From contig JAPUIA010000115.1 in assembly GCA_027297435.1 (NCBI GenBank), positions 60,433 to 124,432 on the forward strand: DNA of 64,000 nucleotides, written 5' to 3'. The notes below the pieces were generated by a model. The model saw only the letters and a program-made list of their open reading frames with translations, did no database searches and was not told the origin of the DNA. This DNA is from Gammaproteobacteria bacterium. GTDB taxonomy: Bacteria; Pseudomonadota; Gammaproteobacteria; Pseudomonadales; Azotimanducaceae. The translations under genes and the position numbers were made by a program. Shown here piece after piece: positions 16,658 through 50,166 of the stretch (positions within the stretch are counted from its first letter, which is position 1; the number at the start of each line of letters is the position of its first letter).

Positions 16658-18613
16658 CTAGTCGGTCTCTTCGGGTTGTATCCCTTGCATGAGATTGTCG
16701 AGACGTTCGGATGTCGGCGAGGTAATTTCCACCTCCCAGATGTCCCGATACTTGCGCTCGGTGACCGCATCGGCCTCATCCTGTGTCCGAATAATCGTCG
16801 CCCGCAAGAATACCAGCAAGTTGGTTTTGGTGCGGGTATCCGATTTGGATCGGAACAACCACCCGATGCCGGGAATGCTGCCGAAGAACGGCACCTTTTT
16901 TCGTGATTGGGTCACATCGTCCTGAATCAAACCCCCGAGTACGATGATTTGGCGGTCTTCCACGAGGATGGTGGTTTCGATCGTGCGTTTGGATGTCACC
17001 ACGTCGGCGAAACCGGCGTCCCCAATGGGCGTTTCGATGACGTTGGTGATTTCTTGTGCGACTTCCAGGCGCACCGAGGTGCCGTCATACACGTGGGGGG
17101 TGACCGTGAGTTGCAGGCCAACGTCTTCACGCTGCACGGTCGTGAAGGGATTGCTGGACCCATCCCCCGAGGTCGTGAAAGAGCCGGTGCGGAACGGCAC
17201 CTCATTGCCCACCACGATCTTGGCTTCCTGGTTGTCCAGGGTCAGGATGCTGGGCGTCGACAGCAAGTTGGCGTCCGAACTGGTTGCCAACGCCGTGATG
17301 ACGGCACCGAAAGAGATGCCGTTGGCATCGATCTTGGCCGCCGCGAGGGTCGGGGTGGTAATGCTCGCGAGCCCCGCCAGCACATCGATCTCCCTCGGTT
17401 CCCCATCCTCACCCGGGCCGATCAGGTTGCCGAGCAGGGCCGAGATGACGCCGTTGAGCGTGGTGCTCACCAAGGGTACGGTTTCGCCGCTCCCGTCCGC
17501 AGCAGCCATTTCTATGCCGATGGCTAGCTGGTCGGTCAGCTGTACCTCGACGATGGCGGCCTCGATGAGTACCTGGGCTCGACGCACGTCGAGCTTCTCT
17601 AGGATGTCGAATATTTCGCTCATCGTTCCGGGGTCGGCGCGCACGACGATCGCGTTCAACGACTCGTCTGCATGGATGGTGGTCGATTCGACGTTGCCGT
17701 CCTCGACGGAGCTGGATCGTCCGCTCATGACGTCGCTCAGGATCTCCGCGACGTTCGCCGCGTCCGCGTGTTTGAGGGTGATCACCTGCACCGCACCAGT
17801 AGCCGTCGCGGGCTGATCGAGGGTGTCGATGAGCTTCAGTACTTCTGCAACAGGCCGTGGTTTGCCGCGAATGACCAGACTGTTGTTGCGCTCGTTGGCG
17901 ATCAACTGAATGCGTTGCGGTCCTGCGGCACCGCGGCCGATCTGTTCCGGAGCAAGCGTTTCGAGCATCGCGACCACTGTGCCGACCCAAGCTTCCTTGA
18001 GCGGCACCATGACGACTTCGTCCTCATTCGATACGTCGATGTGCTCGATGATACGCATCAACCGCAAGATGTTGTCGGCATGGTCACTGATGATGACGAT
18101 GTTCGGTTCTGCGACAGCGGCTATGAATCCGTATTGCGGAATCAACGGTCGGAGAATTTTGACGAGCTCAGCCGAATCCACGTTCTGTGCGGGGATCACC
18201 CGGGTAACCAGTTCTTCAGCGGCGAGTCCCGATAGATCGCCTCCGGCACCGGGCGTTTGTTTGCCCGTCGCGTTCTGCTGTATACGGATGACGTTGCCGG
18301 AAGGGCTTGCCGTGAAGTTGTGTACCCTCAGCACGGATAGGAACAGCGCATACACGGCATCGGAGTCCATGCTTTCGCTCGATATCACCGTCACGTTGCC
18401 TTTCAGGCGCGGGTCGATGACGAAGGTCTTACCGGTGATTTCTGCGACCTGGGCGACGAACTCGTGTATGTCCGCGTTTTTGACGTTGATCTTCCAAGAC
18501 TGCTCTTGGCTCCACGCAGGCTGTGCGAATAGCAGCGGCCCGCTGAACAGGCCGATGACGACGAGCTTTCTAACGAGTGCTTGTCCAGAATGCGGAGCAT
18601 TCTGAGACCGCAC
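16658..18613 (-). CDS. gspD: Type II secretion outer-membrane secretin GspD (start assigned to in-frame GTG; ORF open to 18754)
   Basis: Signal peptide, N0/N1 domains, secretin C-terminus (LLSTPSILTLDNQEAKIVVGNEVPF; VPFFGSIPGIGWLF). Confidence 0.93.
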   Translation of the reverse strand: MRSQNAPHSGQALVRKLVVIGLFSGPLLFAQPAWSQEQSWKINVKNADIHEFVAQVAEITGKTFVIDPRLKGNVTVISSESMDSDAVYALFLSVLRVHNFTASPSGNVIRIQQNATGKQTPGAGGDLSGLAAEELVTRVIPAQNVDSAELVKILRPLIPQYGFIAAVAEPNIVIISDHADNILRLMRIIEHIDVSNEDEVVMVPLKEAWVGTVVAMLETLAPEQIGRGAAGPQRIQLIANERNNSLVIRGKPRPVAEVLKLIDTLDQPATATGAVQVITLKHADAANVAEILSDVMSGRSSSVEDGNVESTTIHADESLNAIVVRADPGTMSEIFDILEKLDVRRAQVLIEAAIVEVQLTDQLAIGIEMAAADGSGETVPLVSTTLNGVISALLGNLIGPGEDGEPREIDVLAGLASITTPTLAAAKIDANGISFGAVITALATSSDANLLSTPSILTLDNQEAKIVVGNEVPFRTGSFTTSGDGSSNPFTTVQREDVGLQLTVTPHVYDGTSVRLEVAQEITNVIETPIGDAGFADVVTSKRTIETTILVEDRQIIVLGGLIQDDVTQSRKKVPFFGSIPGIGWLFRSKSDTRTKTNLLVFLRATIIRTQDEADAVTERKYRDIWEVEITSPTSERLDNLMQGIQPEETD

Positions 18614-18731
18614 TCGTGGAGGGCAAGGATGCCCGACCATTTTTCGAAGAAAAATGCGAGGCTTTCGGAGAAAACCGACGAGGAATATTCGCGGCGCCTG
18701 CGGCGAAATCAGGAGCCGAATTTTCGGACAG
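18574..18731 (-). repeat. Multi-hairpin repeat element, copy 2 (5' end of gspD)
   Basis: Minus strand aligns with 48504-48573: TTTTCTCCGAAAGCCTCGCATTTTTCTTCGAAAAATGGTCGGGCATCCTTGCCCTCC...GCGGTCTC; several short perfect hairpins. Confidence 0.7.
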
Positions 18732-18759
18732 GAACTAACAAGGCTGCTACACATAACGA

Positions 18760-27230: not shown

Positions 27231-27409
27231 GCGCGCCGCTTGGGAGCAATGTAAATGCTGGCGAGGCTTCCAGGTGCCAGCGATGGCGCCAGCAACGTAA
27301 TCATGACTCACGCGGTTCGACACGAAGTCACGGGTGCCGGTCGACGTCCTCAGGGCGTCACACGGTTTTGATTTCGGGAGCTGCAGAGGCTTAACCCGGA
27401 GATAAACTA

Positions 27410-47596: not shown

Positions 47597-48451
47597 ATGC
47601 AACTCTGCGGATTCGAAGTTGGCCTGTCCGAGCCTTTGTTCGTAATCGCCGGCCCCTGCGTGATCGAGAGCGAAGCGTTGGCGCTCTCCACCGCGGAGGC
47701 GTTGAAGGCAATCACGGACAGGGTCGGCATACCGTTTATCTATAAGAGCTCCTTCGACAAGGCCAATCGCTCATCGCACGAAAGTTATCGCGGCCCGGGC
47801 TTAAGTGAGGGCCTGAGGATACTCGAGAAGGTCAGGACCGACCTTGAAGTGCCGGTATTGACCGACGTACATGAAGACACCCCGCTCGACGAGGTAGCCG
47901 AGGTAGTGTCCGTATTGCAGACGCCGGCTTTTTTGTGCCGGCAAACCAACTTCATCCACAACGTTTGTGCTCAGCACCTACCGGTAAATATCAAGAAGGG
48001 ACAGTTCCTGGCACCCGCAGACATGACCCACGTCGTGGCAAAGGCCAAGGCGACCGGCAATGAGCAGGTCATGGTGTGTGAACGCGGTGCGAGTTTCGGC
48101 TACAACAATCTGGTCTCGGACATGCGCTCGCTGGCCATTATGCGAGCGACCGATTGCCCGGTCGTGTACGACGCAACCCATTCCGTGCAGATGCCCGGCG
48201 GTCTCGGTAGCGTATCGGGCGGCCAACGCGAAATGGTGCCCGTGTTGGCCAGGGCGGCAGTCGCGGTGGGGGTGGCCGGGTTGTTCGTCGAAACCCATCC
48301 CGACCCGGCGAACGCCCTATCTGACGGTCCTAATTCCTGGCCTTTACAGTTGATGGAAGCGCTACTGATCGAACTGAAGGCGCTGGATAGCCTCACCAAG
48401 GCTCACCCGTTCCTGGAAGACCAACTGCTCACGGTAGACACAACAGGGTGA
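47597..48451 (+). CDS. kdsA: 3-deoxy-8-phosphooctulonate synthase
   Basis: [35 protein letters not shown]. Confidence 0.97.
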
Positions 48452-48465
48452 ATCAGGCTATTAAC

Positions 48466-48593
48466 GGTCTCAAAAATGCCGTGCCGGCATTTTTGTTTCA
48501 CGCTTTTCTTCGAAAACCTCCCATTTTCCTCTGGAAAATCATCGCGCATCCCTGCGCTCCTAGAAGCGGTCTCGTTTTTGAGACCGCTTCTAG
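48466..48593 (+). repeat. Multi-hairpin repeat element, copy 1 (kdsA-eno)
   Basis: Serial hairpins: AAAAATGCCG/CGGCATTTTT; TTTTC-TTC-GAAAA; ATTTTCC-TCT-GGAAAAT; GCGCA-TCCC-TGCGC; CTAGAAGCGGTCTC/GAGACCGCTTCTAG; aligns with the minus strand of 18604-18674. Confidence 0.75.
48472..48497 (+). terminator. Intrinsic terminator-like hairpin after kdsA (also first module of the repeat element)
   Basis: AAAAATGCCG-TGC-CGGCATTTTT. Confidence 0.55.
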
Positions 48594-48605
48594 ATTGAGC
48601 CAGTC

Positions 48606-50166
<1,561 letters not shown>

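Follow-up and report, generated by a model that had tools for sequence, protein, structure and literature searches.

The window, by which we mean the whole stretch of 64,000 nucleotides that was analysed, carries between kdsA and eno a complete element of 136 bp on the plus strand (48458..48593), which we call type A. Its limits follow from the alignment of 20 copies, from comparison of their flanks and from a full-length covariance-model match (C19:108890-109025). The preliminary description had rightly placed a structured element in this junction, although the extent it gave, 48466-48605, had to be corrected. The upstream gene (47597..48451, +) encodes a member of the DAHP synthetase I family (Pfam DAHP_synth_1), is named kdsA from its context, and ends with a stop codon 6 bp 5' of the element. 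The gene eno (48606..49895, +; Pfam Enolase_N and Enolase_C) starts 12 bp past the element. The enolase is otherwise full-length and is interrupted by a single in-frame TAA at about codon 257 (49374-49376, between ..YVDAT and VLAGEG..), which may be a sequencing error of the draft assembly or a real lesion. The sole Rfam match of the window is a t44 RNA (RF00127, score 46.6) at 27289-27395.

Folded as single-stranded DNA, the kdsA-eno copy forms exactly five hairpins, with a free energy of -38.4 kcal/mol and a z-score of -9.2 against dinucleotide shuffles. H1 (48471..48495, +) has an A-tract/T-tract stem, AAAAATGCC..GGCATTTTT, and 97.8% of its cells are paired in the 20-copy alignment. H2 (48504..48516, +) reads CTTTTC-TTC-GAAAAC at this locus and GGTTTTC-TNC-GAAAACC or GGTTTGC-TNC-GCAAACC elsewhere, with two-sided changes in 5 of its 7 pairs across genomes. 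Such changes were also seen in 6 of the 8 pairs of H3 (48523..48539, +; ATTTTCC-TCT-GGAAAAT) and in 3 of the 5 pairs of H4 (48544..48557, +; GCGCA-TCCC-TGCGC). H5 (48560..48593, +) is a terminal palindrome, CTAGAAGCGGTCTC..GAGACCGCTTCTAG, that occurs elsewhere in solo or partial copies.

A second element in the window, of 160 bp and type C, lies on the minus strand at 18575..18734, as established by a covariance-model match (C19:79018-79170, E=9.3e-15), the type C alignment and the end motif. A copy at gspD had been noted before; it is indeed there, and its position is now corrected to within the 5' part of the gspD reading frame (16658..18754, -; Pfam secretin and GspD N0, translated with and without the insertion), between 5-bp direct repeats, GTTAG, at 18735..18739 (the 5' copy, -) and 18570..18574 (the 3' copy, -). 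The element and one GTTAG together make 165 bp, or 55 codons, within codon 6, and the frame stays open. Removal of the 165 bp in silico gives MCSSLVRKLVVIGLFSGPLLFAQPAWSQ, with the predicted GspD N-terminus MCSSLVRKLVVIGLFSGPLLFAQPAWSQEQSWK, which from its sequence looks normal, like a textbook Sec signal peptide. Translation of the present gspD may start at a GTG or ATG of the element, or further upstream.

The starting observation was that 48504-48573 (+) resembles 18604-18674 (-), and the best 60-base alignment does match at 46 of 60 ungapped positions, versus 33/60 for the runner-up when that 60-mer is compared with both strands of the window and at most 34/60 for shuffled versions (200 shuffles). 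The compensatory difference pointed out between the two, GCGCA-TCCC-TGCGC in the kdsA-eno copy against GGGCA-TCCT-TGCCC in the gspD copy, was likewise confirmed. Each segment lies within a larger element, of type A/B and type C respectively, and because these are different subfamilies the resemblance ends at both sides. A BLASTn search of the 4.2-Mb draft genome with 111 bases around the kdsA-eno copy found 23 places at E<1e-11, and a covariance model built from 20 copies, with the gspD copy left out, found 31 places at E<=2e-6, the gspD copy among them at E=9.3e-15. Together with the matches across the family described below and the score of 46/60 against shuffles, these copies refute a chance likeness of two ordinary intergenic hairpin regions; nothing is left in favour of that explanation and we give it virtually no credence.

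An alignment that included the flanks resolved a common 136-bp element in two forms, A (CTATTAGCGGTCTC...GGTTTTCTTCGAAAACC...) and B (CTACAACCGATCTC...GGTTTGCTACGCAAACC...), whose ends read SAASCGRTCTC beside TA. Form C, which includes the gspD copy, has the same core as A and B with different ends, TTCCTGTCCGGAAATTCG on the left and AGAATGCTNCGCATTCTGGACAAGCACTA on the right, and measures about 143-160 bp. The type C end motif is also borne by forms D and E and by solo end hairpins. Type D (two loci, L106 and L115, on G000:C167 and C75) is a different body on type C ends: it is 187 bp long, has another interior (..CCTGGGCCAGGGACGGCCCGG..), and TAGCTA repeats flank both copies. Neither element of the window has an Rfam match at the gathering score, and none was found at E<=1 over 8 element loci. 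We found no description of the five-hairpin family in the open-licence literature, and part of a survey of 40 genomes for stem-loop repeat families (PMC2267715) holds none that is recognisable as it.

The other 8 genomes of the genus lack the element, by BLASTn and by covariance model alike. A scan of GTDB species genomes with the core pattern matched three other MAGs, all labelled Gammaproteobacteria, and the same pattern found no match in viral contigs. With a core model comprising H2-H3-H4, matches were obtained in at least 18 of 207 genomes and at least 8 of 37 genera of the family, counts that are lower bounds because searches on this scale score only a few candidates in each genome. In an order-wide search (394 genomes), only weak, partial, H3-H4-like single or double matches appeared beyond the family, in four other families; those of the form CTCGCATTGCCC-TTC-GGGCAATGGCGGTGCATCCCTGCACCG (L178-L182) possibly reflect a wider H3-H4 module. 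The copies from CR05bin32 (L088, L090, L093-L097) carry a short tandem unit, GCGTACGCAGT, in variable copy number between H3 and H4.

Covariation is evident in the core stems. Among 39 copies of forms A, B, C and E, 7 of 20 core pairs show two-sided changes, and the covariation score exceeds that of all 500 shuffles and all slid controls. Among the 71 matches from all genomes, in an alignment fitted to the model and so favourable to covariation, 14 of 20 core pairs show such changes, with up to five pair types per position (0/500 shuffles). Stems are rewritten in other genera, as in GGATTGC-TAC-GCAATCC and CGAAAACC-TTC-GGTTTTCG (L134), and those of H3 are much longer at two loci (L142, L156); across genera, the order of the hairpins, their short loops and the linkers CCTCSC and CATCC persist. 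Within the genome H3 shows decay, one of its pairs being broken in up to 7/19 copies. The preliminary description had proposed a dispersed, structured and hitherto undescribed repeat family with compensatory changes, and had let that proposal depend on further copies and on covariation among homologous loci; with more than 20 copies by BLASTn and 31 places by covariance model at E<=2e-6, covarying homologues and no Rfam match, it is borne out. Its suggestion of a structured RNA is a weaker possibility. The hairpins are ordered and covary, but a preference for the RNA of one strand is lacking: the mismatches in the 20-copy alignment are about equally A.C (15) and G.T (10), and therefore give no sign of RNA of one strand being kept. 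The model-fitted alignment has 24 G.T versus 12 A.C, an excess to which we give little weight because that alignment rewards G.T.

The type C-like copies have inverted ends, TAGTKCYTGTCCRGAA, with the motif TAGTKCYTGTCC at both, that is, terminal inverted repeats, while the ends of type A/B copies are similar but imperfect. The end motif is specific, a reversed control giving 0 matches versus many true ones in 12 genomes, and opposed pairs of it lie about 40-180 bp apart. Integron attC sites were considered for these RY-rich ends and dropped on inspection by eye, the ends being YTARYTAG and not RYYYAAC/GTTRRRY. The flanks of type C-like copies repeat TARYTA, a target-site duplication of about 6 bp: identical 6-mers flank 13 of 30 copies versus 2.6 expected, and the central dinucleotide of the flank repeats is equal in 22 of 30 versus 6.4 expected (0/20000 shuffles in each case). 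An independent position-by-position scan peaks at the same flank offset. The target itself sits inside a palindrome, YTARYTAR. For type A/B the position scan gave no target-duplication signal; these copies sit as C-TA...TA-G, which fits equally a TA duplication (as in ERIC, Correia and RUP, of IS630 type) and a fixed end sequence. One further copy (L202, G132:C77) interrupts an internally deleted reading frame identified by eye as an IS256-like transposase. Its joined flanks overlap, by BLAST, by exactly 6 bp, TAACTA, and no uninterrupted paralogue of them was found.

Among about 21 type A/B copies, 9 have the stop codon of a gene exactly in the 3' junction of the element and 1 has it at the 5' junction; for the 30 type C-like copies the numbers are 19 and 5. 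This orientation bias at stops, 28:6, has p=0.0002, the genes for these counts having been called by codon score only, with doubtful calls at L010 and L014. TARYTA contains TAA/TAG, so that a gene-sparing insertion will often hit a stop codon, and of the non-coding TARYTA sites observed in this analysis 4 of 9 are at stops anyway; we have accordingly toned down the idea that stop codons are targeted by a special mechanism. Placement at stops would follow largely from a TARYTA target combined with the loss of gene-breaking insertions. Several of the C-termini look natural by eye, such as that of SdhA, ending ...QPMERKY. The sdhA-sdhB junction holds an element here, while in two complete congeners the genes overlap with essentially no spacer. 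Congener junctions at four loci (L162, L163, L165, L166) have other palindromes directly behind the sdhA TAG stop, e.g. TTAGCGCCTCCAAGTTGCTGCGCAACTCGGAGGCGCTGTAG, and judging from these sequences the junction appears to be struck by unrelated repeats as well.

Taken together, these results make it probable that the elements, which measure about 90-190 bp and have five ordered hairpins, H1-H5, are MITE-like, non-autonomous transposable elements of a new family. This reading is supported by the dispersal of the copies (about 31), their absence from 8 congeners and patchy presence in the family (18/207), and also by the duplication test, the TAACTA overlap, the repeats at gspD, the sdhA-sdhB comparison, the specific ends and the covariation of the core. 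A transposase supplied in trans would cut at the ends of the element. Type C-like copies duplicate about 6 bp of their TARYTA target, and the 3' end of the element usually points toward the gene that ends at the insertion site. We infer mobilisation in trans from the ends, the duplications and the copy number, because the draft genomes searched yielded no transposase bearing such ends: among 12 of these, no opposed ends stood at transposase-scale spacing, and the loci around end motifs held only elements of 40-190 bp and ordinary host genes, with no autonomous partner. The gspD copy entered codon 6 with the frame retained, and type A/B copies, which share the core and have other ends, would presumably move like type C. 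Counted against the MITE-like reading are the conserved internal structure with its replaced stems, which exceeds what a MITE typically needs, and the lack of an autonomous partner, of a type A/B duplication and of an orthologous empty site in a near-identical strain, the congener sdhA-sdhB junctions being too diverged or holding other palindromes.

The resemblance to REP/BIME sequences that had been suggested does not hold in the strict sense. Such repeats are mobilised by a RAYT, an IS200/IS605-like tyrosine transposase, which acts on a GTAG head plus a hairpin and makes no target duplication. The present elements are also palindromic and mostly intergenic, with tetranucleotide-like ends (type B starts with CTAC, which is GTAG on the other strand), and the genome does have a RAYT gene. 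However, the flanks of the only gene that passes the family cut-off (C33:12023) hold another REP, GTAGGAGCGGCTTCAGCCGCGAT, and not the present repeat; the GT(A/G)G head with a single imperfect palindrome is missing, the body has five hairpins rather than one or two, and the type C-like copies show both target duplications and inverted ends. For type C this explanation is largely refuted, and overall we regard it as very improbable. The RAYT locus itself (L031, G000:C33:10523-12628), where REPs of the GTAGGAGCGGCTTCAGCCGCGAT type flank the gene after a pyruvate kinase-like gene, is a separate repeat system. Selection on a transcript is a somewhat stronger competitor; the element would then be a structured RNA (3'-UTR element, terminator or sRNA) that is conserved and only incidentally multicopy. 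In its favour, the hairpins are ordered and covary strongly from genus to genus, type A/B has an A-tract/T-tract stem in H1, and since the 3' end abuts gene stops far oftener (28 versus 6 for the 5' end), the element is usually read in one direction in the messenger of the adjoining gene. Against this, RNA of one strand should favour G.U, whereas G.T mismatches number 10 versus 15 A.C in the 20-copy alignment. The neighbouring genes are unrelated, one copy lies in coding sequence, the element is absent from congeners and without an Rfam match at E<=1, and a consensus terminator scan does not call H1, leaving the idea that H1 is a proven terminator unsupported. We therefore consider an RNA function unlikely.

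The hairpins may be kept through recognition of folded DNA, through a benefit as 3' untranslated region or through correction of palindromes by template switching. They might have no function at all, the covariation being only apparent and produced in MITE-like DNA when imperfect palindromes are perfected by template switching or correction during replication. The compensatory pairs track subfamilies, the decay within the genome is strand-symmetric, and at H3 it is in places uncompensated, all of which would suit this explanation; it nevertheless leaves unexplained a fixed number and order of hairpins, TNC-type loops and the CCTCSC and CATCC linkers over 8 genera with exchanged ends, and we think of it as a minor possibility to be taken seriously. 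Within the MITE-like reading, the hairpins would be kept for a role at the DNA level, perhaps as single-stranded or cruciform structure in transposition or replication, or else the palindromes would be repaired by template switching, and inserted copies could then serve as portable 3'-untranslated hairpin arrays. More tentatively, and with considerable doubt, we suggest that selection acts on the five-hairpin body as such, which would be recognised in its folded form, as single-stranded or cruciform DNA, and would work as an exchangeable, cargo-like module on ends A, B, C and E. If so, the elements would be neither MITEs, which are defined by their ends, nor REPs, which are defined by one hairpin, but a separate class of structured mobile element, whose insertion behind stops in a preferred orientation would supply a portable 3' untranslated region.

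As a rule, a MITE-like repeat looks like nothing but its parent insertion sequence and decays. In the present family an ordered multi-hairpin body has persisted in at least 8 genera with nearly every stem rewritten and with swappable ends, and it is therefore testable whether the transposition machine recognises folded DNA. The elements also reshape genes, lying on stop codons, between sdhA and sdhB, between kdsA and eno and, in frame, within the signal peptide of a secretin, and the set of copies is a ready model for detecting the family elsewhere.

Bacterial MITEs have been given a working definition of less than 200 bp with inverted ends, target duplications and stem-loops, and ends in common with an autonomous insertion sequence are not required of all of them (PMC2229807). 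The five-hairpin elements, short (about 136-160 bp), multicopy (about 31 copies) and without a transposase gene, fall within this definition. Like ERIC, Correia (NEMIS) and RUP (PMC2229807), they are non-coding and under 200 bp, have inverted ends, a target duplication, a terminal TA and stable stem-loops, and are mostly intergenic and at times inside genes. Unlike these, they have several separate ordered hairpins and not one long stem-loop, their type C duplication is about 6 bp of TARYTA with no related insertion sequence found, and their body is conserved across genera through paired changes while the ends are exchangeable. The gspD copy, at 55 codons, recalls the Rickettsia palindromic elements (RPE; PMC2229807) as palindromic mobile DNA in frame in a protein gene; here there is one clear in-frame case and most copies are intergenic. 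With REP/BIME and RAYT (PMC2817692) they share dispersed palindromes, often just behind genes, and mosaic arrangements with solo hairpins, but they have target duplications and no unit of GTAG plus a single palindrome, and the RAYT goes with another REP. Finally, the Yersinia YPAL/RU-2 elements (PMC2229807; YPAL about 168 bp) also have internal inverted repeats and target duplications at dyad-symmetric sites, although the YPAL duplications range from 3 to 26 bp, whereas those described here are of about 6 bp with a fixed consensus and accompany a multi-hairpin core.
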